A stretch of DNA of 64,000 nucleotides, taken from contig NZ_CP069247.1 of NCBI RefSeq assembly GCF_021065005.1, positions 1 through 64,000 on the forward strand, in the 5' to 3' direction. Shown here in pieces: positions 1 through 43,472 of the stretch. The stretch comes from Candidatus Gromoviella agglomerans (GTDB taxonomy: Bacteria > Pseudomonadota > Alphaproteobacteria > CAJXXZ01 > G021065005). Numbering within the stretch: the first letter of the stretch is position 1; the number at the start of each line of letters is the position of its first letter. The notes beneath the pieces were generated by a model, which was not told the DNA's origin, made no database searches, and worked only from the letters and a program-made list of their open reading frames with translations. Position numbers and translations under genes: made by a program.

Positions 1-1362
1 ATGAGTAGTGAAATTTCTAATGTGAATTATTCTGAAGAATTTGATGATATTGAGATAACAGATGTATGTAAAATGGGATGGGTTGCAGTGAATCGCTTGC
101 TGCACAAAGAGTTTGGTCCTGAAATTTCGCGATGTTGGTTTGATCAGCTCTTTGTAGGAGAGGTTGCTGGTAAGAAATTTCTTTTTGCTTCTACTCCGTT
201 CGTGAAAGACTGGGTTTCTTCGTATTATATTGATAAAATAACAGACATGCTAAGTAGTGTTGGACTGTGCATAGATGGATTTAAAATCAAAAGTCAACTT
301 TCTAAAGAGAATGATGTTAGTGGTCCCGTTGCACTTGATCTATCATTGGTTAAATCGAAAAATCTGAACTTAAAATATTCATTTGATTCCTTTATAGTTG
401 GAAAATCAAATGAACTTGCATACGCTGCAGCTAAGCGTGTTGCGGAAGAAGATGCAGTATACAATCCTTTGTTTTTTTGTGGCAATGTTGGAATGGGTAA
501 AACTCATCTTATGCATGCAATAGGCTTGCACGCATCAAATGAAAGAAATAAAAGAGTGTTGTATTGTACTGCTGAGACTTTTATGTATGAATTTGTTAAT
601 GCTATACGATATCAGAATGTGTTGGATTTTAAGAAAAAATTTAGAGAAGTTGATATTTTACTAATAGATGACATTCAGTTCATAGCTGATAAGGGATCAA
701 CACAAGAAGAGATGTTTCACACTTGGAATAGCTTGATGGAGCAAAATAAGCAGGTTATAGTTTCATCTGATAAATTACCATCGGAATTAAATGGAATTCC
801 AAATAGAATAAAGTCAAGACTTGGTTCTGGATTAGTTGCCGTTGTGCATGATGCTGATTATGAGCTAAGATTGAGTTTCTTGCAGTCTAAAGTTCAGCAA
901 AGTGATGCAAAATTTGAAGAAGGAGTGCTAGAGTTGATTGCTAACAGTTCTGTCCCTAGTGTTCGTGAATTGGAAGGTCTTTTCATTACCTTATGTGCTC
1001 AAAGTTTTGGTGCGTATGTTTCTAAGGATATGGTTTCTAATGTGCTTTTTCGTCTTGGCGGAGGAAATTTAAAGCAATTTGATATCGACGAGATTAAGAA
1101 AATTGTTGCTGATTATTATCACGTCAAGGTTACTGATATTAATGCAAAAATTAGAACTAAAGATATTGCTAAAGCCAGACAGATAGCGATGTTTTTAAGT
1201 AAAATTATGACAACGATGTCACTACCTAATATAGGTAAAAAATTTGGTGGTAGAGATCACACAACTGTTTTGCATGCGGTGAAAAGTATAACAGAATTGA
1301 TGAATAAAGATGGAGATATAAAAAATGATATTAGAATCCTTAAAGCAAAATTGATGAAATAA
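1..1362 (+). CDS. dnaA: chromosomal replication initiator protein DnaA
   Basis: Initiator ATPase that binds DnaA boxes and opens the replication origin. The 453-residue product has a short N-terminal domain, an AAA+ core with a Walker A loop GNVGMGKTH at about residues 161-169 and a Walker B segment LLIDDIQF at about 219-226, and a C-terminal helix-turn-helix with the DnaA signature GGRDHTTVLHAV from about 416. The length matches the family. The ATG is the first base of the window, so promoter and ribosome site are not visible; the assembly was evidently rotated to this gene. It is followed by dnaN, recF and gyrB, the classic order. Confidence 0.98.
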   Translation: MSSEISNVNYSEEFDDIEITDVCKMGWVAVNRLLHKEFGPEISRCWFDQLFVGEVAGKKFLFASTPFVKDWVSSYYIDKITDMLSSVGLCIDGFKIKSQLSKENDVSGPVALDLSLVKSKNLNLKYSFDSFIVGKSNELAYAAAKRVAEEDAVYNPLFFCGNVGMGKTHLMHAIGLHASNERNKRVLYCTAETFMYEFVNAIRYQNVLDFKKKFREVDILLIDDIQFIADKGSTQEEMFHTWNSLMEQNKQVIVSSDKLPSELNGIPNRIKSRLGSGLVAVVHDADYELRLSFLQSKVQQSDAKFEEGVLELIANSSVPSVRELEGLFITLCAQSFGAYVSKDMVSNVLFRLGGGNLKQFDIDEIKKIVADYYHVKVTDINAKIRTKDIAKARQIAMFLSKIMTTMSLPNIGKKFGGRDHTTVLHAVKSITELMNKDGDIKNDIRILKAKLMK

Positions 1363-1591: not shown

Positions 1592-2740
1592 ATGCATATA
1601 AAATTGAGGAAGTCCCAATTTTTAAAAGTGTTGAGTCACCAAAGTGCGGTCGTGAATAAAAGATCCACTGTTCCAATATTATCTCATGGAGTGCTCAATG
1701 TGATAAGTGATTCATGCGAGGTTATTGGCACGGATTTGGACATTTGCCTTTTGGAAACTATGGAATGTGAGGTTATATCAGGTGGAGTATGTACTTTCCC
1801 TGTTCATATGCTTTGTGAAACCGTTAAGAGGCTAGATGAGGATAATCCTATTGAAGTGAAATTTTCAAAAAAGAGTCTTGAAGTGACTTCTGGTGCATCA
1901 AATTTTGTTTTTGATGTTTTATCTGTAGATGGATTCCCATTAGATTATGCTAATTTTAGGAACTTATTTGCTATTTCTGATTCAGAATTGTCTTTTTCAA
2001 TTAATCGATTAGATTTGTTATCTCTGATAAATAGAACACATTTTTGTATGTCACTTGAAGAGACTAGATATGCTATAAATGGTATATATTTTCATTTTAA
2101 GGATGGTAAGTTTTTTGCAGTTGCAACTGATGGACATCGTTTGGCTGTGTCTAGTGTTTTGCTAGATGTTCAGGTACTTCCATCTGAAGGAGTTATTGTC
2201 CATCGAAAGACTATAATTGAAGTTAGAAGAATTTTGCTCGAATCAGTATGTGAAAATGTCAAAGTTAAGATTTTGAATGGTCAGATAGTGTTTATAGTTG
2301 ATGATCTGATTTTTGTATCCAAGGTAATAGATGCTAAATTTCCTGATTATGTGAGGATTATTCCTAATAGAATTGGAGAAAATATGCGTTCAGTTGAATT
2401 GAAGAGCAGAGATTTAGCTAATTCAATTATGAAGATATCAAGTGTGTCTGAGGAAAAAAATAAGATCATAAAGATGAAATTTCAGCCTGATGGTAATGTA
2501 AACATGTTGTATAATGATGCTCTTGTGTCTGCTGAAGATGTAGTGAAAATTGTATCAAGTGATATCTCATCTGTTGTGAGAATTGGTTTTAATGCACGAT
2601 ATGTACTTGATGTAGCGATGAATTCTGCAAATGAGACAATTAAGATTACTTTTAATGAATCTTCATCTGACGCTGCTGTGGTGTTTGATTGTTTTGAAAA
2701 TGCTTTTAGTGTACTCATGCCTGTAAGATTATCTTCATAG
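1592..2740 (+). CDS. dnaN: DNA polymerase III sliding clamp (beta subunit)
   Basis: Ring-shaped processivity clamp that tethers Pol III to DNA. The 382-residue product has the three repeated clamp folds, with family segments such as NRSTVPILSHGVL-like VNKRSTVPILSHG near the N-terminus, FAVATDGHRLAVSS in the middle, and the C-terminal end VLMPVRLSS that corresponds to the usual clamp terminus VMPMRL. The length is standard. recF starts 4 bases after the stop, so dnaN-recF is probably one transcript. There is no convincing Shine-Dalgarno sequence, as for most genes here. Confidence 0.97.
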   Translation: MHIKLRKSQFLKVLSHQSAVVNKRSTVPILSHGVLNVISDSCEVIGTDLDICLLETMECEVISGGVCTFPVHMLCETVKRLDEDNPIEVKFSKKSLEVTSGASNFVFDVLSVDGFPLDYANFRNLFAISDSELSFSINRLDLLSLINRTHFCMSLEETRYAINGIYFHFKDGKFFAVATDGHRLAVSSVLLDVQVLPSEGVIVHRKTIIEVRRILLESVCENVKVKILNGQIVFIVDDLIFVSKVIDAKFPDYVRIIPNRIGENMRSVELKSRDLANSIMKISSVSEEKNKIIKMKFQPDGNVNMLYNDALVSAEDVVKIVSSDISSVVRIGFNARYVLDVAMNSANETIKITFNESSSDAAVVFDCFENAFSVLMPVRLSS

Positions 2741-2744
2741 TTTT

Positions 2745-3905
2745 ATGTCTATTAAAAGGTTGTTATTAACTAAGTATCGTAATTATTGTAATCTCGATTT
2801 GAAATTTAACAGTTTGTGTGTGCTCTTGTATGGAAGAAATGGAGTAGGAAAGACAAACATTCTAGAAGCAATTTCTCTACTATCATCTGGTAATGGCATT
2901 AGAGGCGATGATTTTGGAAATATGCAAAATGTTGGGTTTGTTGATTTTTGGGCTATTTTCATTGACATGATGTGTGCGCAAGATGGGAGTATAAGAGTTG
3001 GAATAGAGAAGACAAATTCTGGTAGAAAAATTAAAATTAATAGCAAAATTGCAAAGACAACTGATTGTTTGAAAATTGCGAAGATAGTGACATTTGCTCC
3101 TGGAGTTGATAGAATATTCACAGATCAAATATCAGTTAGACGGAGATTCTTTAATCTGTTGATTGCTAATTTTGATGATGAGTATGCTTCTAATTTGATA
3201 GCTTATGATAAGTATTTGAAAGAACGATCTAAAATATTGAATTTATTAAAGGATGAAAGTGCTGAGAGTTTCAGAAAATATGATAATTGGCTTGATGTTA
3301 TTGAAGATAAAATGTCTGTTTTGTCCTGGAGTATAGAATTGTGCAGATTGACTTTTTGGAATAAGCTCAACAAAATGCAGTTTATGAATGATTTTCCAGC
3401 AGTGACTGTAAATCTTACTTCAAATGTCTTCGATATTGTAAGATTTGAAAGTAAATTACTTGATAATGTTGGTATATTTGATATTAGTGTTGATGATGCT
3501 GTAGCAATATTAAAGAAGACACTAAAATTTAATCGTAGGTTAGATGCAATAAAGAAAAAGACCGCATTTGGTGCGCATAGAAGCGATATTAATGCAAGTG
3601 CTTATGGAACTCAAGCAAATTTATGTTCTACTGGTCAGCAAAAAATGATTGTAGTTTCGATGCTTTTTTCTATATCAAGGCTGTACATATCTGAAGGTAA
3701 GAAGAATATTATTTTACTACTAGATGAAATTGCTGCGCATATTGATGCTTATCACCTTACGATTATTTTTGAAGAAATTGTCAAATTAATTCAATGTGGA
3801 GTGCAAGTTTTTGTTACTGCAACAGATGTTGCTTTATTTGGTGATCTTGCTGATTATCTTGCAGATGATTTTACGATGATTGATGTTGAAAAATACGTTG
3901 AGTGA
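2745..3905 (+). CDS. recF: DNA replication and repair protein RecF
   Basis: SMC-like ATPase that helps RecO/RecR load RecA on gapped DNA. The 386-residue product has a Walker A motif GRNGVGKTN at about residues 30-38, an ABC signature-like STGQQKM near residue 294, and a Walker B motif LLLDEIAAHID at about 325-335. It follows dnaN by 4 bases. recR is also in this window (25.7 kb), so at least part of the RecFOR route is kept; recO is not seen. Confidence 0.95.
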   Translation: MSIKRLLLTKYRNYCNLDLKFNSLCVLLYGRNGVGKTNILEAISLLSSGNGIRGDDFGNMQNVGFVDFWAIFIDMMCAQDGSIRVGIEKTNSGRKIKINSKIAKTTDCLKIAKIVTFAPGVDRIFTDQISVRRRFFNLLIANFDDEYASNLIAYDKYLKERSKILNLLKDESAESFRKYDNWLDVIEDKMSVLSWSIELCRLTFWNKLNKMQFMNDFPAVTVNLTSNVFDIVRFESKLLDNVGIFDISVDDAVAILKKTLKFNRRLDAIKKKTAFGAHRSDINASAYGTQANLCSTGQQKMIVVSMLFSISRLYISEGKKNIILLLDEIAAHIDAYHLTIIFEEIVKLIQCGVQVFVTATDVALFGDLADYLADDFTMIDVEKYVE

Positions 3906-4015: not shown

Positions 4016-6400
<2,385 letters not shown>

Positions 6401-9865: not shown

Positions 9866-10744
9866 ATGAAATTGAGGAATGAGTTAAGGATTTTTGATTT
9901 GATGCTGAAAATGCCCCGAATGGCTTTGATTATTGAAAATACGATTGATTTGTCTCAAGTACAAAATGTTGTTACAGCTTATATTATTCAAAGTCGTGAG
10001 ATTGTAAATAACAGTCTTGGTCAGATCTCGTTATTTCCTTTGAATGAGTCATCTATTTCTCATGTGCCAATTGATGAAGTTGATGATGTTCAAAAGGTTT
10101 ATGAGAGATGCATTGGTCATAAGGATGCTGACAAAGTGTTAAGTATGATAAAAAATGGTACTTACACAGATTTTTTATTTATTGATGAAAAAGGAGAAAT
10201 TACAATTGATATTGCAGTAAAAATTGTGAGTTTTTGTCAGAAATCTCCTTTATTTTTGAAAAAAAAGATTGTGATAATAAATAATTTTCAAAATATTAAT
10301 ACAAATGCATCAAATGCCTTATTAAAAACTATTGAAGAGCTTCATGATACTTATATGATCGTGATTACTAGTAATATTAACAAGATCTCGCAAACGATAA
10401 AATCGAGGTGTATGTATTTTTTGAGCGAATATTCATTGGAGACATATGAGAACTCATTCATCTTGGATTTAATGAGAAGTTCAAGTTCGTTTTCGCTAAA
10501 ATTAGATGCGATCAAATTTTGGAATGATTATGAAAATTCGGATATGAGTGCGATTGAAGTTGGAGTTTTGAAAGTAATTCTCAAATGTTATCGTGATGGG
10601 GTCTCTGATGATGTTGGTGCGAATTTAGCTCACGTTGCTTACAATGTGATGCGAATGTGTATAAATTACAGGGATTATCGTTTAGAAAAAAGGAGTGTAA
10701 TTGTCAGTATTTTGAATGAAATTGAAGGTGTATTATGCGATTGA
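9866..10744 (+). CDS. holB: DNA polymerase III delta' subunit (HolB-like)
   Basis: Clamp-loader subunit that helps place the DnaN ring on primed DNA. The diagnostic block is NASNALLKTIEE followed by a threonine/serine sensor segment and TIKSRCMYF, the SRC motif of clamp-loader small subunits, in the middle of the 292-residue protein. The N-terminal P-loop region is poorly conserved, as usual for delta', which does not hydrolyse ATP. I chose the ATG at 9866; an in-frame TTG at 9854 would add four residues. The family is divergent, so the symbol is somewhat less certain than the fold. Confidence 0.75.
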   Translation: MKLRNELRIFDLMLKMPRMALIIENTIDLSQVQNVVTAYIIQSREIVNNSLGQISLFPLNESSISHVPIDEVDDVQKVYERCIGHKDADKVLSMIKNGTYTDFLFIDEKGEITIDIAVKIVSFCQKSPLFLKKKIVIINNFQNINTNASNALLKTIEELHDTYMIVITSNINKISQTIKSRCMYFLSEYSLETYENSFILDLMRSSSSFSLKLDAIKFWNDYENSDMSAIEVGVLKVILKCYRDGVSDDVGANLAHVAYNVMRMCINYRDYRLEKRSVIVSILNEIEGVLCD

Positions 10745-10845
10745 TGCTATAATTTTTGATTATGAATCTTCCAATTATGGTCACTGAGTTTTTTGAAGAT
10801 ATTTCCCTATGATGTGTTTGATATTTTGATTATTGCTAAATCTAA

Positions 10846-10874
10846 TTGATTTTGATTGTGAATAAGAGTATAAT
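10846..10874 (+). promoter_or_regulatory. predicted promoter of tRNA-Gln
   Basis: A -35 TTGATT (10846-10851), a 17-base spacer and a perfect -10 TATAAT (10869-10874) lie 8 bases before the tRNA 5' end. One of the best sigma-70 matches in the window. Confidence 0.65.
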
Positions 10875-10882
10875 CAAAACGT

Positions 10883-10953
10883 TGGGAGATAGTTTAGCGG
10901 TAGAACTCTCGGCTCTGGACCGAGCAACCTTGGTTCGAATCCAGGTCTCCCAG
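10883..10953 (+). tRNA. tRNA-Gln (anticodon CUG)
   Basis: A full cloverleaf can be drawn. The acceptor stem pairs TGGGAGA (10883-10889) with TCTCCCA (10946-10952), starting with the U1-A72 pair characteristic of tRNA-Gln. The anticodon stem is CTCGG/CCGAG around the loop CTCTGGA, giving anticodon CTG. The T loop is TTCGAAT and the discriminator is G. CCA is not encoded. This tRNA reads CAG; a UUG-anticodon Gln tRNA for CAA must lie elsewhere. Confidence 0.93.
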
Positions 10954-11053
10954 TATTTTTATAAGTACAATGTATTTTTTTTGAGCTTTGCGCAAGGTTC
11001 TATTGCGATTTTTTGTATTGGGGATACGGAATAAGAATTCGTTAATCATATAG

Positions 11054-12475
11054 TTATTTGTTTTGTTTCAAAATATTTGTGCATAAATTCCGAAATGTCT
11101 GCCCTCTGTGCTCGAAGTTTTGATATTGATCGTAGCTCTCACATCCAGGAGAGAATAATATGCAATACTTCAGATTTTTGCTTATTTTGCTCGATACTTT
11201 TCTCAAGATCTCTTCAAGGCTTGTTTCTATTTGCAATTCATATGCAAAATTGCCATTTGTTTGCAGTGTGTATGCAGAATTTAGATTGTTGGTCTGCAAT
11301 ACATCTGTAAATACATCTGTAATTTGATCTTGAGATGTAATTGATTGATACATGCGTTCTTTACACTCTCCAGTTACGTAGACGTAGCTAATGCCTTGCA
11401 AATGTATTTTTAATGATGAAAAATTCTGCTTTTTTTTGTCTCCTCCTCCAATAATGAGAATTATTGTCCTGTCATGATACTCATTTTTGCAGTATTTTAT
11501 TGCAAATATTGTGGCTGCAATTGTTGTGGACTTGCTATCATTTATGCAAAGTATGTTACTTGATATATATATGAGTTCTGTTCGGTGTGGAAGCCCTTTG
11601 AAAGATTTAATTCCATCAATGATATGTTTGCTTGAAAAATTGATAGAATGTGCAATTGCCGCTGATATGAGTAATGCTTCGCTAGGTACATTTTTCGCAT
11701 AGCATTCATTGACAATTGCATTGCCATTAATGTATAGAGTGCTATCTATCATGGAGTAGCCATTTGAAAGTATTTCATTTGCTGAAAATAATGTGATATT
11801 TGATGTATTGTTCATTTGTGCTAATAAATTTGTAATGTTTGCATCATTTGCACAAGTAAAAGCCTTATTAGCATACAATATCTTTGCTTTAACTTTACAG
11901 TATTCTTCCATATTATGATGAAAATCCAAGTGATTAGGTGTGATGTTTGTCAATATTCCTATATTAATTCTATGAATTGACTGAATTAGCATTAATTGAG
12001 CTGATGATATTTCTATAATGTATCCTTTTAATTTTGCATTGATTAATGCAAGAGGTGATTGGCCTATATTTCCGCAAAGTCCATAATTTTGTCCCAATAT
12101 ATTTTGCAGAAGTGAGGCTGTAGTAGATTTTCCGTTGCTGCCTGTGATAGCGATGATAAGGGCATTTTTATCTACTTGCTGTAAAAAAAACTCTACATCG
12201 TTGATTAATTTGCATGAGTATTTTTGTAATTTTTTTATTAATAAGTGATCAAAATTTAATCCAGGGCTAACAAACACCAAATCTGGAATGATTTTGCAAT
12301 TGAAATAATTTGAGTGAATTTCACCTTCGATGGGAGTTTTACACTTATTTATGTCATCATCGTGTATGTAAATTTTAATTTTTGAAAAATGTGTACGAAA
12401 GAACTTTATAACGGACTTTCCAGTGATGCCAAGTCCTATTACCAAAATTGAGTTTACATTTCTTAGGTCTATCAT
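11054..12475 (-). CDS. murD: UDP-N-acetylmuramoyl-L-alanine:D-glutamate ligase
   Basis: Cytoplasmic Mur ligase that adds D-Glu to UDP-MurNAc-L-Ala in peptidoglycan synthesis. The 473-residue product has the N-terminal Rossmann part (ILVIGLGITGKSV), the ATP loop ITGSNGKSTTASLLQ near residues 115-130, and the Mur ligase segment LPHRTELI with NDSKSTTIAAT in the C-terminal half. It begins 1 base after the mraY stop, so both genes are co-transcribed and probably translationally coupled. In most relatives mraY and murD sit in the large dcw cluster; here only this pair remains together. Confidence 0.96.
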   Translation of the reverse strand: MIDLRNVNSILVIGLGITGKSVIKFFRTHFSKIKIYIHDDDINKCKTPIEGEIHSNYFNCKIIPDLVFVSPGLNFDHLLIKKLQKYSCKLINDVEFFLQQVDKNALIIAITGSNGKSTTASLLQNILGQNYGLCGNIGQSPLALINAKLKGYIIEISSAQLMLIQSIHRINIGILTNITPNHLDFHHNMEEYCKVKAKILYANKAFTCANDANITNLLAQMNNTSNITLFSANEILSNGYSMIDSTLYINGNAIVNECYAKNVPSEALLISAAIAHSINFSSKHIIDGIKSFKGLPHRTELIYISSNILCINDSKSTTIAATIFAIKYCKNEYHDRTIILIIGGGDKKKQNFSSLKIHLQGISYVYVTGECKERMYQSITSQDQITDVFTDVLQTNNLNSAYTLQTNGNFAYELQIETSLEEILRKVSSKISKNLKYCILFSPGCESYDQYQNFEHRGQTFRNLCTNILKQNK

Positions 12476-28764: not shown

Positions 28765-28796
28765 TGTTAGCAGTTTTTGAAATACTATCTACCAAA

Positions 28797-37517: not shown

Positions 37518-37679
37518 TGTGGATAACTTCATTCTCAAGGTAATTACATTAATAAATTCATAAAGTTTGCACAATAAAAAAAGATTGATCAGCAGGGTAT
37601 TTTTTCATTTTTTTCAATATATTTGACTTTTATATATCATTTATGATAGCGCACACCTTGTGGATAACTTTGTGGATTA
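37518..37679. promoter_or_regulatory. cluster of DnaA-box-like 9-mers in the greA/mraZ gap
   Basis: Two exact TTATCCACA boxes on the minus strand (37518-37526 and 37659-37667) and one box with a single mismatch (37671-37679) lie in AT-rich intergenic DNA, the last two 12 bases apart. The flanking greA/leuS and mraZ/comM/ftsQ genes diverge from here. This could be a DnaA-controlled region or an origin candidate. Against an origin: single exact boxes also occur inside mraY, comM and atpD, and the dif-like site is only 3.7 kb away. Confidence 0.35.
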
Positions 37680-37681
37680 CT

Positions 37682-37715
37682 CCCATCAGATCCCATTGAC
37701 TACCATTGTCCCCCA
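37682..37715 (-). promoter_or_regulatory. MraZ operator: four 10-bp-spaced TGGG-type repeats
   Basis: CCCA occurs at 37682, 37692 and 37712 and the variant ACCA at 37702, an exact 10-base period over four turns (read on the minus strand as TGGG, TGGG, TGGT, TGGG). In E. coli MraZ represses its own operon through TGGGN repeats with 5-base spacers, which is the same period. The repeats overlap a TTGACT (37696-37701) that could be the -35 of the mraZ promoter. Confidence 0.65.
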
Positions 37716-37750
37716 TGATACCCTCATTCATTCTTTTTATCTTGTTGATT

Positions 37751-38173
37751 GTGTCAATTTTCCTATCTACACATATTAATAAGATAGATGTAAAAAAAAG
37801 AGTTTCTATTCCAGTTCAATTCCGTCTTTCGTTAATAAATGAATCATTTCAAGGGATAATATTATTTAAGTCCCAATTCTTCAACACTGTAGATGGATGT
37901 GGAATGAGTAGAATGGAGAGATTAAGTAAAGAAATAGAGGGTGATAGAATTTTAGATTCATTTTTGAAAAAACAAGATGATATAACTGCTGATATTTTCT
38001 CAAATGCTATTATGTTGCCATTTGACCAAGATGGAAGAGTGACTTTACCCGAAGGAGTGATAAAACATGCTAATTTATCAAATCAAGCTTGTTTTGTTGG
38101 CAGGGGACCAATGTTTCAAATATGGAATCCAGACAACTTTGAGGAGTATAAACAGCAAAAAATTCAAAATTAA
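37751..38173 (+). CDS. mraZ: transcriptional regulator MraZ
   Basis: AbrB-like DNA-binding protein that represses dcw genes. From GTG 37751 it is 140 residues and begins SIFLSTHINKIDVKKRVSIP, the first of two MraZ repeats; the second is MLPFDQDGRVTLPE, and the protein ends with FVGRGPMFQIWNP, a hallmark of the family. An open frame continues upstream to ATG 37706, but that start lies inside the TGGG-type operator and adds a hydrophobic run unlike MraZ. The usual next genes (rsmH, ftsL, ftsI) are missing; comM follows. Confidence 0.9.
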   Translation: MSIFLSTHINKIDVKKRVSIPVQFRLSLINESFQGIILFKSQFFNTVDGCGMSRMERLSKEIEGDRILDSFLKKQDDITADIFSNAIMLPFDQDGRVTLPEGVIKHANLSNQACFVGRGPMFQIWNPDNFEEYKQQKIQN

Positions 38174-38410: not shown

Positions 38411-40219
38411 ATGACTAATGAAGTTTTTAACGATGCAGTATTTACTTCAACGAGCAAAGTTTGTAGTGAAATATATACGGTAAATTTCAGAGGAATAGAT
38501 ATCGACATAATAACAGTAGAAATATCGATCTCAAATGGATTACCTGCATTCATAATAGTTGGCTTGCCAGATAAAGCAGTAGCTGAATCAAGAGAAAGAG
38601 TCCGTTCAGTTTTAAGTTTTATAGGATTAGCAATGCCTCCAAAAAAAATAGTCATAAACATGTCTCCAGCAAATCTTCAAAAAGAGGGAACACAATACGA
38701 TTTACCAATTGCATTAAGTATACTTTCAGTAATGGACATAATCGATAAAAATTCACTTAAAGACTTTGTATGCATGGGAGAATTATCTCTAAATGGAGAT
38801 ATTATGACAGTCCCAGGAGTATTATGTGCATCTATGAAAGCAAATTCATTAAATAAAGGCATAATATGCCCATCAACTTGCATTGATCATGCATTTTGGA
38901 GTGGCAATAAGAGCATACTTGCATCTAAAGATATAATCTCATTAGTAAATCATTTTAAAGGCACAGAATCATTGCAAATATTTTCAGGAGAATTTATAAA
39001 TGATGACTTAAATTATGAAGAATTAGCTAGAGCCAAAAAATATTTTGGAATAAATGAAAATCCTTATGAAAAAACAATAAAAACATCTGAAGATATGACG
39101 GATGTAGTTGGTCAGAAAATGGGGAAATATGCACTAGAATTAGCAGCAGCTGGAGGACATAACCTTTTATTTATGGGACCTCCTGGTGTTGGAAAATCTA
39201 TGTTGGCTAACAGAATTATGACTATTATTCCAAAAATGAACACTAGAGAAATAATAGAAACAGCAATGGTATATAACATCAGTAATCACTACGATCAATA
39301 TCATTTAATGACATCTATTAGGCCATTTCGCGCGCCACATCACTCTGCTTCAACTGTATCTGTAATAGGTGGAGGATCAAAACCAAAGCCTGGCGAAATA
39401 TCACTCGCACATAACGGTGTTTTGTTTTTAGATGAATTTCCAGAATTTTCCAGAAATACTCTAGAGTCATTGAGGCAACCGATAGAAAATGGTCATATTA
39501 CAATAACAAGATCTGATTCTTCAAGGACATATTTTGCAAAATTTCAACTCATTGCAGCTATGAACCTTTGCATGTGCGGAAATTATGGAAAAAAGCCATG
39601 TATTAATGGACCTAGATGTGCTGAAATGTACCAAAAAAAGGTCTCAAAACCAATATTAGATAGAATTGATTTGCAATGTTATTTACCAGAATTATCTCAA
39701 GAAGATATACAAAAAAATGATAGAGGAGATAGCAGTGCGACGATCTTAAACAGAGTTATAATATGTCGAAGTATTCAATATTATAGATATGGGGTGTTAA
39801 ATGCTTTTCTGTCTCCAGAACAAATGAAAGGAATAGAAATTCAGCAAGAAGCTCTGCCTTTATTAGATAAATGTGTGGATAAATTTAAGATATCTATGCG
39901 TGAACGAGATAAAATTATTAAAGTTGCCAGAACAGCAGCGGATATCGATATTGCTAAACAATATGAAAATGTAAATAATGCAGTAAGTTACTTTGAGTGT
40001 CTTGAAAGATTTAGCAAGATCTCAAGAGAAACACAACACGATCAGGTATATGATAAAAATGACTACGAAGCAATAGTTGCATTAATTGCTCAAGTTTTGA
40101 AAATAAGCATTAATAAAATTCAAGCGAAAATTTTTGCTGATATTTTATCTATCGTAGAAAATAGCTCGATTTCAAAAAAACACATCAATGAGGCGTTATC
40201 TTATAGGTTGCGGTTGTGA
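38411..40219 (+). CDS. comM: ComM/YifB-family Mg-chelatase-like AAA+ ATPase
   Basis: ComM is a hexameric helicase that extends branch migration during integration of DNA in natural transformation. The N-terminal Lon-protease-like fold has VGLPDKAVAESRERVRSVL and MSPANLQKEGTQYDLPIAL; the AAA+ core has Walker A GPPGVGKSM near residues 256-264 and Walker B VLFLDEFPEF near 337; a cysteine block with MCMCGNYGKKPC follows. It is 602 residues, about 90 longer than usual, because of a longer C-terminus and a short N-terminal extension. A 97-base piece of this gene is copied at 51289-51385. Confidence 0.93.
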   Translation: MTNEVFNDAVFTSTSKVCSEIYTVNFRGIDIDIITVEISISNGLPAFIIVGLPDKAVAESRERVRSVLSFIGLAMPPKKIVINMSPANLQKEGTQYDLPIALSILSVMDIIDKNSLKDFVCMGELSLNGDIMTVPGVLCASMKANSLNKGIICPSTCIDHAFWSGNKSILASKDIISLVNHFKGTESLQIFSGEFINDDLNYEELARAKKYFGINENPYEKTIKTSEDMTDVVGQKMGKYALELAAAGGHNLLFMGPPGVGKSMLANRIMTIIPKMNTREIIETAMVYNISNHYDQYHLMTSIRPFRAPHHSASTVSVIGGGSKPKPGEISLAHNGVLFLDEFPEFSRNTLESLRQPIENGHITITRSDSSRTYFAKFQLIAAMNLCMCGNYGKKPCINGPRCAEMYQKKVSKPILDRIDLQCYLPELSQEDIQKNDRGDSSATILNRVIICRSIQYYRYGVLNAFLSPEQMKGIEIQQEALPLLDKCVDKFKISMRERDKIIKVARTAADIDIAKQYENVNNAVSYFECLERFSKISRETQHDQVYDKNDYEAIVALIAQVLKISINKIQAKIFADILSIVENSSISKKHINEALSYRLRL

Positions 40220-40319: not shown

Positions 40320-41201
40320 ATGAAGTTAGCAAAATTAAGAGAATTATTTATCAGAAAATTCATGCAATCTTTACGAAAAATTGCGCGTTTATTGAAGATA
40401 TTTAGAATAATTGCTCTATTTTTAATAATTGGATTAATAATTTACTGCCCATTTAATAGTTATTTAAGAAGTTCTTTAGACTTGTTCCTAACATCAAAAG
40501 GCATCATAATTCACGATGTTGAAATATCTGATGATATCTTCATAAAGAAGGATTATATTCTAAATATTGTTAAACAACACGCAACTATTGGAAATGAAGA
40601 AAGAAATGGCATTCCAAAATCCACTGTGTTCGCTGATATATATGCTATTCACAGAAATTTGTGGCATCTTGGCGTATTTGAGTATTTAATTGTTAAAAAA
40701 GTTTTTCCTCACAAATTATTAATACATGTCAAGCAAAAAAAAATAATTGCTATCATTACTTCTATTAACAAGCAAGAACAATCGCAAATTACAATTTTGT
40801 TTGACGATGGAATAATACAAAAATTTCCAATTTCAATGATTAATGAAAGTGTGCTGAAAAATGTACTGATGATATTCTCTCCATCCTTGAATGATGAATT
40901 TTTGAATGCAATCGCAAAAGATATTAAAAATATAAATATTATCAGAGCAAATATGAAAGAATATCATTTCGATCTTGAATTTTTGCCTAGTTACAGATGG
41001 AATGTGAATATTACAGGTAATTTAGACAATAATAGACTAAGTCAATCAAAAATTACTCTAAAAATGCCAAGAGAAAACATAAAAAATGCGTTTGAAATAT
41101 TTGAAAAATATCGAGATAAAATAATATCATCTTCTGTTGTAGACTTCAGATTTATAAAATCAGAATATATTCTGATGAAGGCTGCAAAGATTGAAAGGTA
41201 G
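40320..41201 (+). CDS. ftsQ: cell division protein FtsQ
   Basis: Bitopic division protein linking FtsB/FtsL to the divisome. The 293-residue product has a basic cytoplasmic N-terminus, one membrane helix (IIALFLIIGLIIYCPF near residues 36-52), then a POTRA domain (IIIHDVEISDDIFIKKDYIL) and the beta-domain with NLWHLGVFEYLIVKKVFPHK, matching the family's LPWVxxAxVxRxWP region. Sequence divergence is high but layout and order of blocks fit. ddlB and ftsA, its usual neighbours, are absent here. Confidence 0.78.
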   Translation: MKLAKLRELFIRKFMQSLRKIARLLKIFRIIALFLIIGLIIYCPFNSYLRSSLDLFLTSKGIIIHDVEISDDIFIKKDYILNIVKQHATIGNEERNGIPKSTVFADIYAIHRNLWHLGVFEYLIVKKVFPHKLLIHVKQKKIIAIITSINKQEQSQITILFDDGIIQKFPISMINESVLKNVLMIFSPSLNDEFLNAIAKDIKNINIIRANMKEYHFDLEFLPSYRWNVNITGNLDNNRLSQSKITLKMPRENIKNAFEIFEKYRDKIISSSVVDFRFIKSEYILMKAAKIER

Positions 41202-41486
41202 CCATCGATTTGTTAGTGATTTTTTATCAGAGATTTGTTAGCGTTTTTCATTGAACGAATTTGATTATTGGATTATTGATAACTTCGTATAATTGATATT
41301 ATGGAAAATGCAAATAACGTAATCACGCTGGAAAGCAAATAATCAATCAACAAACAATCAAAAAATATCTTAGAAATTCTCAAGAATACTTGCGCATCTT
41401 CATCACTTTATCAATCTGCAAAACTATGAAACTCTTCGATCCATAGATACTCTGTGATTGATTGGATCTAGCAAAAACTTTGACAT
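41202..41486. other. 285-base intergenic region around the dif-like site
   Basis: Apart from the dif-like element at 41282-41309 I see a short repeated word (ATTTGTTAG near 41209 and 41234) and no coding frame or RNA gene. Confidence 0.4.
41282..41309 (+). other. dif: dif-like XerC/XerD recombination site
   Basis: The 28 bases fall into the dif pattern: an 11-base left arm ACTTCGTATAA, a 6-base centre TTGATA and an 11-base right arm TTATGGAAAAT. Compared from memory with E. coli dif (arms GGTGCGCATAA and TTATGTTAAAT) about 20 of 28 positions agree, and with B. subtilis dif (arms ACTTCCTAGAA and TTATGTAAACT) about 22 of 28. The site is intergenic, as expected. XerC/XerD resolve chromosome dimers here, normally at the replication terminus. 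Confidence 0.65.
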
Positions 41487-43472
41487 TTAACTAATTTCAA
41501 AAAGTTCCTCTATCTTATCAATTGATATGTCGTTTGATATAAGAATAAGATTCTGTTTCTGTTCTTTTTTTTCATTTATTTTCATTTTTTCTATCTGTTG
41601 TCTTAATTTCTCAGTTTTTCTCTTTCTCATTGCAGCTTCTTCTAAATCAAATATTGACCCTATACGATCAATAATTGCATTATTTTCGTGCATTCTTTTC
41701 GGGTCTATCTTCTCATCAATTAAACCTCTATACGCTGCTTTTGCGTGATCTTCCATCTTAAGATATTTGGACTGTATATATAGATTCACTTTTTTTTCCA
41801 TTTTCTTAAAAAAATCTACAAATGAAGACTCTCTATCACTCATTCGAACCCAAACTACAATGTATTTGCATACTAGTTGATAAATTTCTGATGGATGTAC
41901 AATTTGTTCTTTAGTATAAAACGTACCAACTCCAGATATATGATAAGTTGTATTAGATTCTCTGTATTGACCTTTTCCATCAATAACTGGAATGAGCTTA
42001 TTTTCATCATCTTCTTCAAAATCATCTTTTTTCTTTTTTGATACAGTTTTTTCTGTTTTTTGTTGATTTTTGCTAATTTGAGCAGAAGCATTAGGTTTTA
42101 CACTTTGAACAAACTGTTGAGTGATAGACTGACTAGTACTCATGAGGTCATCTCTATCTCTATTCTTAGACAATTCTTGTGATATTTTATTTAATTGTTC
42201 TGGCAAGTGCTTAAGTATAAATCTGAAGTACATCTTAAATGAGTAGAAATCTCCATATATATCAACGAAACTACGAGGAGTTTCTGATTCTCCTTGATAT
42301 GATAAAACATTAGGTGCTTTCAGAGCTCCTTGAATAGCTACAATGAATAGCGATTTGTCTGAAATATCGTGTCGAGTATTTGTAACACAATTTGGCATGT
42401 TTTCTAACATAAGGTGTATAGAATTGCTGAAATACAGTTCATGTGCAATAGAATTTGAGTGTGACTCAGAAAAATATCGAAGTCTTATGGCTTCCTTATT
42501 CATTTCCGCAGATTTTATTGCAAATTGCACAGGATCAATTTCTTGAATGAAACTTTCTTCTTCTAATTCATTTTGTAAAATAGGTTTTTGATCTAAAATG
42601 CTATTTTCTTCAGAAACAGGTATACGTTTTAAAGTAATTTTCTTTCTGAGAATTAACTGAAATAGATCTTGAAAAAAATATTTAGATATTCGATTGATTA
42701 ATATTTTGCAAAAATCTTCTTCTTTGTTTCTAGAAAAGATTTCCAATATTTTTTGAGAATCGTTATTTAGAGAAAACTTTATTCCTTCATCACTTTCAAC
42801 AGATTGAATACAATTTGTTATTATTCCTGAAATAAGCCAATGCCTACCATCCAAAAAGTCATATTGTGGGTTAACATTGTATTTTGTCAACATATCGGAC
42901 TGATGATTGTATATCTTACGACAAGTATCGAAATAAAAGTCAATTTCTGAATCTATAACATGTCTTTTATCACGAATCAAATCGTCAATTTTTCTCTCAT
43001 AATCATCAACAAAAATTTTGGAAAATTCTACATCACAACAATCCTTATCAGAATGATCAGTATAGTCTATGTGACATACAGGAGACTCTTTACATGTATC
43101 GCATTTGCATTTCTTACATATGTAATAATGAGGGTATTTGAATTTTATATTTCCAATCAAATTTCTACAAAATCTACAAAAATATTCTGAGAAATATTCA
43201 GTAATTAATGACTTATTTTGTTGTCCTATACTCATTACTGCACCATGTACGTAACGATCTATTTCGTACTCTTCTTTCCAAAGTTTTTCACAAAATTCTT
43301 TTTTGTATTTCTCATCCTTATTTTGAAGGAATAATGAACTGAATTCAATATTAATAATGTTGTTATGATTAAAATCACAACGATCATTTTTATAACAAGC
43401 AGGATTAATTTGTGAAGAAGCTATGGTTAAGTAAAATACGAATTTCGATATTCTTTTCGTGAATTCAGTCAT
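41487..43472 (-). CDS. large putative secreted protein with cysteine-rich, zinc-ribbon-like patch
   Basis: Not recognised. The 661-residue product begins with a signal-like segment (FVFYLTIASSQINPACY). Around residues 90-135 cysteines cluster as FCRFCRNLIG, YYICKKCKCDTCKESPVC and a later DKDCCD, which could bind zinc. The middle is helical and charged; a low-complexity segment with SKKKKDDFEEDDENK lies near residue 475, and the C-terminal 80 residues (RKRKTEKLRQQIEKMKINEK) look like a coiled coil. It is a monocistronic gene divergent from glmM. With the orphans at 6.5 and 24 kb it forms a class of long exported proteins without known relatives. Confidence 0.72.
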   Translation of the reverse strand: MTEFTKRISKFVFYLTIASSQINPACYKNDRCDFNHNNIINIEFSSLFLQNKDEKYKKEFCEKLWKEEYEIDRYVHGAVMSIGQQNKSLITEYFSEYFCRFCRNLIGNIKFKYPHYYICKKCKCDTCKESPVCHIDYTDHSDKDCCDVEFSKIFVDDYERKIDDLIRDKRHVIDSEIDFYFDTCRKIYNHQSDMLTKYNVNPQYDFLDGRHWLISGIITNCIQSVESDEGIKFSLNNDSQKILEIFSRNKEEDFCKILINRISKYFFQDLFQLILRKKITLKRIPVSEENSILDQKPILQNELEEESFIQEIDPVQFAIKSAEMNKEAIRLRYFSESHSNSIAHELYFSNSIHLMLENMPNCVTNTRHDISDKSLFIVAIQGALKAPNVLSYQGESETPRSFVDIYGDFYSFKMYFRFILKHLPEQLNKISQELSKNRDRDDLMSTSQSITQQFVQSVKPNASAQISKNQQKTEKTVSKKKKDDFEEDDENKLIPVIDGKGQYRESNTTYHISGVGTFYTKEQIVHPSEIYQLVCKYIVVWVRMSDRESSFVDFFKKMEKKVNLYIQSKYLKMEDHAKAAYRGLIDEKIDPKRMHENNAIIDRIGSIFDLEEAAMRKRKTEKLRQQIEKMKINEKKEQKQNLILISNDISIDKIEELFEIS

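Follow-up and report, generated by a model that had tools for sequence, protein, structure and literature searches.

A predicted dif site close to dnaA and a replication origin far from it in a 590-kb bacterial chromosome

The closest described counterparts of the locus reported here are the proteobacterial dif/XerCD/FtsK systems surveyed by Carnoy and Roten (2009; PMC2731167), in which dif is a single-copy, intergenic and palindromic sequence of 28 bp with low GC content and an 11-6-11 layout, found near the cumulative GC skew maximum of genomes that encode XerC, XerD and an FtsK carrying the gamma domain; in all of these respects the present locus is alike. As a rule, dif is found where the skew peaks (PMC2731167; PMC3025954). 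The system was found to be present in Rickettsiales of 0.85-1.5 Mb and absent from the small insect-endosymbiont genomes examined, including Buchnera, Blochmannia, Baumannia, Wigglesworthia and others (PMC2731167), whereas the 590-kb genome described here has it. The dif sites of Rickettsia prowazekii and Ehrlichia ruminantium share the XerD arm TTATGGAAAAT with the present site and likewise belong to AT-rich reduced alphaproteobacterial genomes, but their XerC arm and centre differ and the genome here is smaller.

With regard to origins, those of Wolbachia and Rickettsia are flanked by hemE/COG1806 or COG1253 and are not located by dnaA (PMC1914354). The origin described below was similarly found through flanking genes and binding sites, not dnaA; it differs in the absence of hemE, in its setting between rho and rpmG-rpsB with parAB/parS alongside, and in that dnaA is near dif. 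An oriC away from dnaA is already known (PMC10225481), also in other reduced alphaproteobacteria (PMC1914354), and the large distance between the two in this chromosome is a well-supported further case of a known phenomenon. It is less usual for a genome of 590 kb to have the complete dif/XerCD/FtsK set and for dnaA to be so close to dif.

The window under study is the whole stretch of 64,000 nucleotides from the start of the 589,967-bp contig; about 75% of the genome was sampled base by base and the rest was covered by pattern and profile searches. The reading favoured here, with a probability of roughly 0.93, is that the site is the chromosomal dif, that it lies in the terminus zone, and that replication runs in both directions from an oriC at ~393.1 kb, 197 kb from dnaA. 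The features at the site are as follows.

41202..41486, no strand: intergenic stretch holding dif, 285 bp, flanking genes convergent
41282..41309, + strand: dif site, ACTTCGTATAA-TTGATA-TTATGGAAAAT
41282..41292, + strand: predicted XerC-binding arm, ACTTCGTATAA, by comparison with PMC2731167 Table 1
41293..41298, + strand: dif central region, TTGATA, on the basis of PMC2731167 Table 1
41299..41309, + strand: predicted XerD-binding arm, TTATGGAAAAT, by comparison with PMC2731167 Table 1

The 28-mer is made up of two 11-bp arms and a 6-bp centre, with the conserved inner ATAA/TTATG present, and both arms are identical to, or one base off, published arms (PMC2731167 Table 1). XerC arms resembling ACTTCGTATAA are found in Thiobacillus (ACTTCGCATAA) and Acinetobacter (GATTCGTATAA), the XerD arm is identical to that of R. 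prowazekii and E. ruminantium, and Burkholderia mallei chromosome 1 has a dif with the same central TTGATA (PMC2731167 Table 1). The low GC content (21%), self-complementarity (16 of 28 positions) and intergenic position fit published dif traits. The ORFs on either side, at 40320-41201 (+) and 41487-43472 (-), have no Pfam or NCBIfam match. Sequence comparison confirms 41282-41309 as a canonical XerC-6-XerD dif site, at which XerCD recombination is predicted.

The original prediction had put the agreement with known dif sites at about 20-22 of 28 positions, and the counts obtained range from 19 to 22 (E. coli 20, B. subtilis 22, H. influenzae 21, P. aeruginosa 21, V. cholerae I 19). Such a count is weak by itself at 31% GC: unrelated 28-mers reach 20-21 matches to a single reference dif several times by chance, so that a raw identity of 20-21/28 is not decisive alone. 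Scored with a weight matrix built from 48 published dif sites (PMC2731167 Table 1), the site reaches 25.9 bits, against 15.5 bits for the runner-up in the ~410 kb scanned (~70% of the genome) and a leave-one-out median of 26.9 bits for the 48 published sites themselves. The best scores in 100 random third-order-Markov genomes had a mean of 15.4 and a maximum of 24.7, none reaching 25.9 bits. A pattern search of the whole contig gave no second copy at up to three mismatches. The predicted 11-6-11 site was thereby borne out as a single-copy element, and the better match elsewhere that would speak against it was found neither by pattern in the whole genome nor by matrix in ~70% of it. When this genome and 40 relatives were searched with a looser dif pattern, 22 of the 41 had matches, 24 sites in all, among them TTCGCATAATTTATATTATGGAAAAT in a same-class 4.6-Mb genome; the reversed-pattern control gave two sites.

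The skew maximum that was proposed as a check on the terminus lies within the window.

28779..28779, no strand: maximum of cumulative GC skew and of cumulative keto skew, computed within the window

Both curves peak at this position, 12.5 kb from dif, where the published distance between dif and the GC skew maximum has a median of 7.3 kb and a third quartile of 21.4 kb (PMC2731167). A maximum far from 41 kb would have spoken against the proposal, and this one is not far from it; the cumulative GC curve also has a near-equal second peak at ~52-55 kb, dif falling between both peaks, and its peak region spans 20-56 kb. Over the sampled genome the skew descends from ~115 kb to 393 kb and then climbs through base 1 to 20 kb. 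In a gene-based model, with third-codon-position skew fitted per gene and coding strand as covariate, two terminus switch points are about equally good, at ~30-35 kb and ~95 kb, and GC3 and TA3 strand skew are flat and near zero from ~30 to 95 kb, neither strand being favoured. This zone of near-zero replication strand skew is ~65-75 kb wide (window positions 30000-64000 and on to ~95-115 kb) and represents either a broad termination zone or a recent rearrangement. Since strand skew is near zero over ~30-95 kb and two switch points fit, dif cannot be shown to be the meeting point of the forks.

The alternative that survives best, and to which we give a little under an even chance, is that dif is real but that the forks usually meet elsewhere in the ~30-100 kb zone, nearer the origin antipode at 98 kb, with dif at the edge of termination. 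It agrees with the flat course of GC3 and TA3 skew between the two switch points, with the position of the antipode (dif divides the chromosome into unequal replichores of 238 and 352 kb) and with the published description of dif as near, not necessarily at, the end of replication (PMC3025954). However, a recent rearrangement inside the zone could yield the same flat skew picture, and the cumulative GC peak falls in the 20-56 kb interval that surrounds dif. The simplest reading is that the terminus is a zone (~30-100 kb) that contains dif at 41 kb, near one edge. Of the earlier claim that the terminus lies ~41 kb from dnaA, the dif site at that place and the nearby skew maximum have stood, while the change in strand skew proved to be spread over ~30-100 kb.

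The greA-mraZ gap, 3.6 kb from dif, holds a pair of perfect DnaA boxes (TGTGGATAA) separated by 141 bp (window positions 37518-37667), and a third box is at 39874; these are possibly a DnaA-regulated promoter or a titration site near the terminus. The mraZ gene itself (window positions 37706-38173) is followed by a comM/yifB-like gene and stands apart from the division/cell wall cluster, which it usually heads.

The location of oriC at ~393.1 kb is supported by four independent features that coincide there, namely skew minima, DnaA boxes, parS and parAB. The GC and keto skew minima fall at 393,012 and 392,856 in a contiguous stretch of 364-428 kb, and the coarse genome-wide skew profile bottoms at the same place. 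Perfect DnaA boxes at 393066, 393164 and 393190, accompanied by two one-mismatch boxes, form a cluster (393,066-393,198) that is the only place with three perfect boxes within 350 bp in the ~446 kb sampled; the densest of the sampled genome, it sits between rho and rpmG-rpsB-tsf, where the intergenic sequence is 80% AT, rpmG having been identified by eye from sequence. Perfect parS sites (TGTTCCACGTGGAACA) occur in the whole genome only at 395639, 406744 and 408699, 2.5-15.6 kb from the origin, and ParA and ParB are encoded at 390754-391554 and 404007-404888. The gene-based strand-skew model places the origin at 390-392.5 kb, and a model with dnaA as the origin fits much worse (normalised residual 2.54 against 1.82). 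The alphaproteobacterial origin marker hemE was rejected as a guide, the gene being absent from this genome. A gene for a VgrG-type type VI secretion tip protein was observed near the origin of this 590-kb genome, at ~410.3-412.3 kb (G000; L015:8281-10314).

An oriC adjoining dnaA is common but not obligatory. The dnaA cluster of this chromosome is intact and has the following members.

1..1362, + strand: dnaA, sole copy found, heading the dnaA-dnaN-recF-gyrB cluster
1592..2740, + strand: dnaN
2745..3905, + strand: recF, from its RecF/RecN/SMC domain and location between dnaN and gyrB
4016..6400, + strand: gyrB

Base 1 of the contig is the exact dnaA start codon, so the contig has evidently been rotated to dnaA by convention. 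No skew switch was seen at dnaA, the skew being positive on both sides of base 1 (+0.23 at 584-590 kb and +0.28 at 1-7 kb), and no dense DnaA-box cluster, parS or parAB was found there. With oriC at ~393.1 kb, dnaA lies near the end of replication and not its start, 197 kb from the origin and ~40-41 kb from dif. This upholds the proposal that dnaA is near the terminus and that the rotation does not mark the origin: dnaA does not mark the origin in this chromosome. It is very improbable that oriC is at dnaA as usual and that the skew pattern was produced by a large inversion of recent date or by a misjoin in the assembly. In other proteobacteria the origin commonly lies beside an intact dnaA-dnaN-recF-gyrB cluster, and the three DnaA boxes present at 10.66-11.08 kb could be read in the same sense, but the skew does not switch at base 1, the box cluster, parS, parA and parB are all near 393 kb and the origin-at-dnaA model fits poorly. 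The three boxes in question surround a tRNA gene at a distance of 10 kb from dnaA, in a span of 431 bp (window positions 10656-11086), and are more loosely arranged than the 393 kb cluster.

Under the favoured reading, replication would proceed bidirectionally from oriC between rho and rpmG-rpsB-tsf, beside parAB/parS, and a rearrangement would have separated oriC from the dnaA cluster. An unlikely further reading is that the ancestral cluster was carried as a unit from the origin into the terminus zone, making dnaA one of the last genes copied in each round; initiation might then be timed by the completion of replication, with dnaA dosage rising only at the end, and not by an origin-proximal dnaA. 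The case also calls clearly for caution with contigs that are rotated to dnaA, as base 1 may then lie near the terminus. Taking dnaA as the origin would nearly invert coverage-based (peak-to-trough) growth-rate estimates, skew plots and gene-dosage arguments for this genome.

In three single-contig genomes of the same order the skew minimum coincides with the contig ends, and dnaA is located 13-48 kb from the origin of its own genome; of the lineages compared, only the present one has a displaced dnaA. In one of the relatives, G002, the skew maximum, half-way round the chromosome, coincides with a dif-like site (307.4 kb), and rho is near the terminus in G002 and G007. A dif-like match at 32.3 kb in G004 was set aside as probably due to chance, being away from the skew maximum of that genome. 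Gene order is scrambled in comparison with the three order relatives (Spearman correlation of origin distance ~0, against 0.69-0.83 among the relatives themselves). A simple swap of origin and terminus regions was rejected on this ground, and as the scrambling extends throughout, no specific rearrangement event is readable. In the DnaA tree the protein groups on a long branch with alphaproteobacterial rows, Holosporales being among the nearest named rows by identity, and the host is probably a reduced, intracellular-type alphaproteobacterium with a 590-kb chromosome. A first impression of a gammaproteobacterium, given by a GyrB model, was dropped in view of this tree.

The presence of xerC and xerD, another proposed check, was established together with an FtsK gamma domain. 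An XerC-like recombinase is encoded at 242.9-243.8 kb and an XerD-like one at 414.8-415.8 kb; for each, its own NCBIfam model scores best, yet below the equivalog cut-off. The XerD-like protein aligns to E. coli XerD (1a0p) across the catalytic domain, with the R, HxxR, GH and Y motifs visible. The catalytic residues of both XerC and XerD are encoded, the assignment being one of family as the sequences are divergent. FtsK, of 684 aa, has its alpha, motor and gamma domains (gamma: PF09397, 81 bits). The KOPS-type octamer GGGNAGGG was found just five times in the part sampled, four of them in the expected direction, and is too rare to test FtsK polarity; other G-rich words were dropped for this purpose because general strand skew confounds them. 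Immediately downstream of xerC, its 3' end is duplicated in a 65-aa ORF repeating VQELMGHKSIRSTQIYTKIDTRKFIANHQ (243.96-244.16 kb; L056:1960-2157, + strand).

Computation shows the dif site and its uniqueness, the enzymes, the skew and the origin elements; the recombination steps are taken from what is known of the Xer/FtsK family. By this analogy the FtsK motor, loaded at the septum at cell division, would bring together the dif copies of a chromosome dimer, its gamma domain would activate XerD, and XerD and XerC would exchange strands at the two arms, resolving the dimer to monomers. That the site is instead a Xer target left by an integrated plasmid or phage, a mobile dif-like sequence and not chromosomal dif, has very little probability. 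About a quarter of published dif sites do have mobile-element genes nearby (PMC2731167), but here the site is single copy in the contig, its family-matched neighbours are housekeeping genes (greA, mraZ, comM/yifB, glmM) with just two unmatched ORFs directly flanking it, and no integrase besides XerC and XerD exceeds the Pfam cut-off in the genome. Weaker still, and already largely refuted, is the suggestion that an AT-rich genome has produced the 28-mer by chance and has its terminus elsewhere, for which the chance occurrence of 20/28 matches to a single reference dif can be cited but against which stand a matrix score 10 bits over the runner-up and above all 100 random genomes, arms identical to or one base off published ones, and a position in the skew peak region.

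The favoured reading, a chromosomal dif in the terminus zone with oriC at ~393.1 kb, provides a complete and internally consistent origin-terminus map for a reduced 590-kb genome that keeps the full dif/XerCD/FtsK system. Its size is in the range where the early proteobacterial survey found the system missing from insect endosymbionts.

Elsewhere in the genome, at 142001-156000 (G000:C1), an array of very long ORFs was observed that would encode glutamine-rich coiled-coil proteins of 2171, 1498 and at least 481 aa.

L005:1159-7674, - strand: glutamine-rich coiled-coil ORF
L005:7929-12425, - strand: glutamine-rich coiled-coil ORF
L005:12551-13996, - strand: glutamine-rich coiled-coil ORF

The first two of these have a near-identical signal-peptide-like start and GAAPGY repeats, and the array (142-156 kb) has a GC content of 0.41-0.49, compared with 0.31 for the genome, and a strong strand skew. 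They are likely to be secreted or surface repeat proteins, which are unusual in so small a genome.
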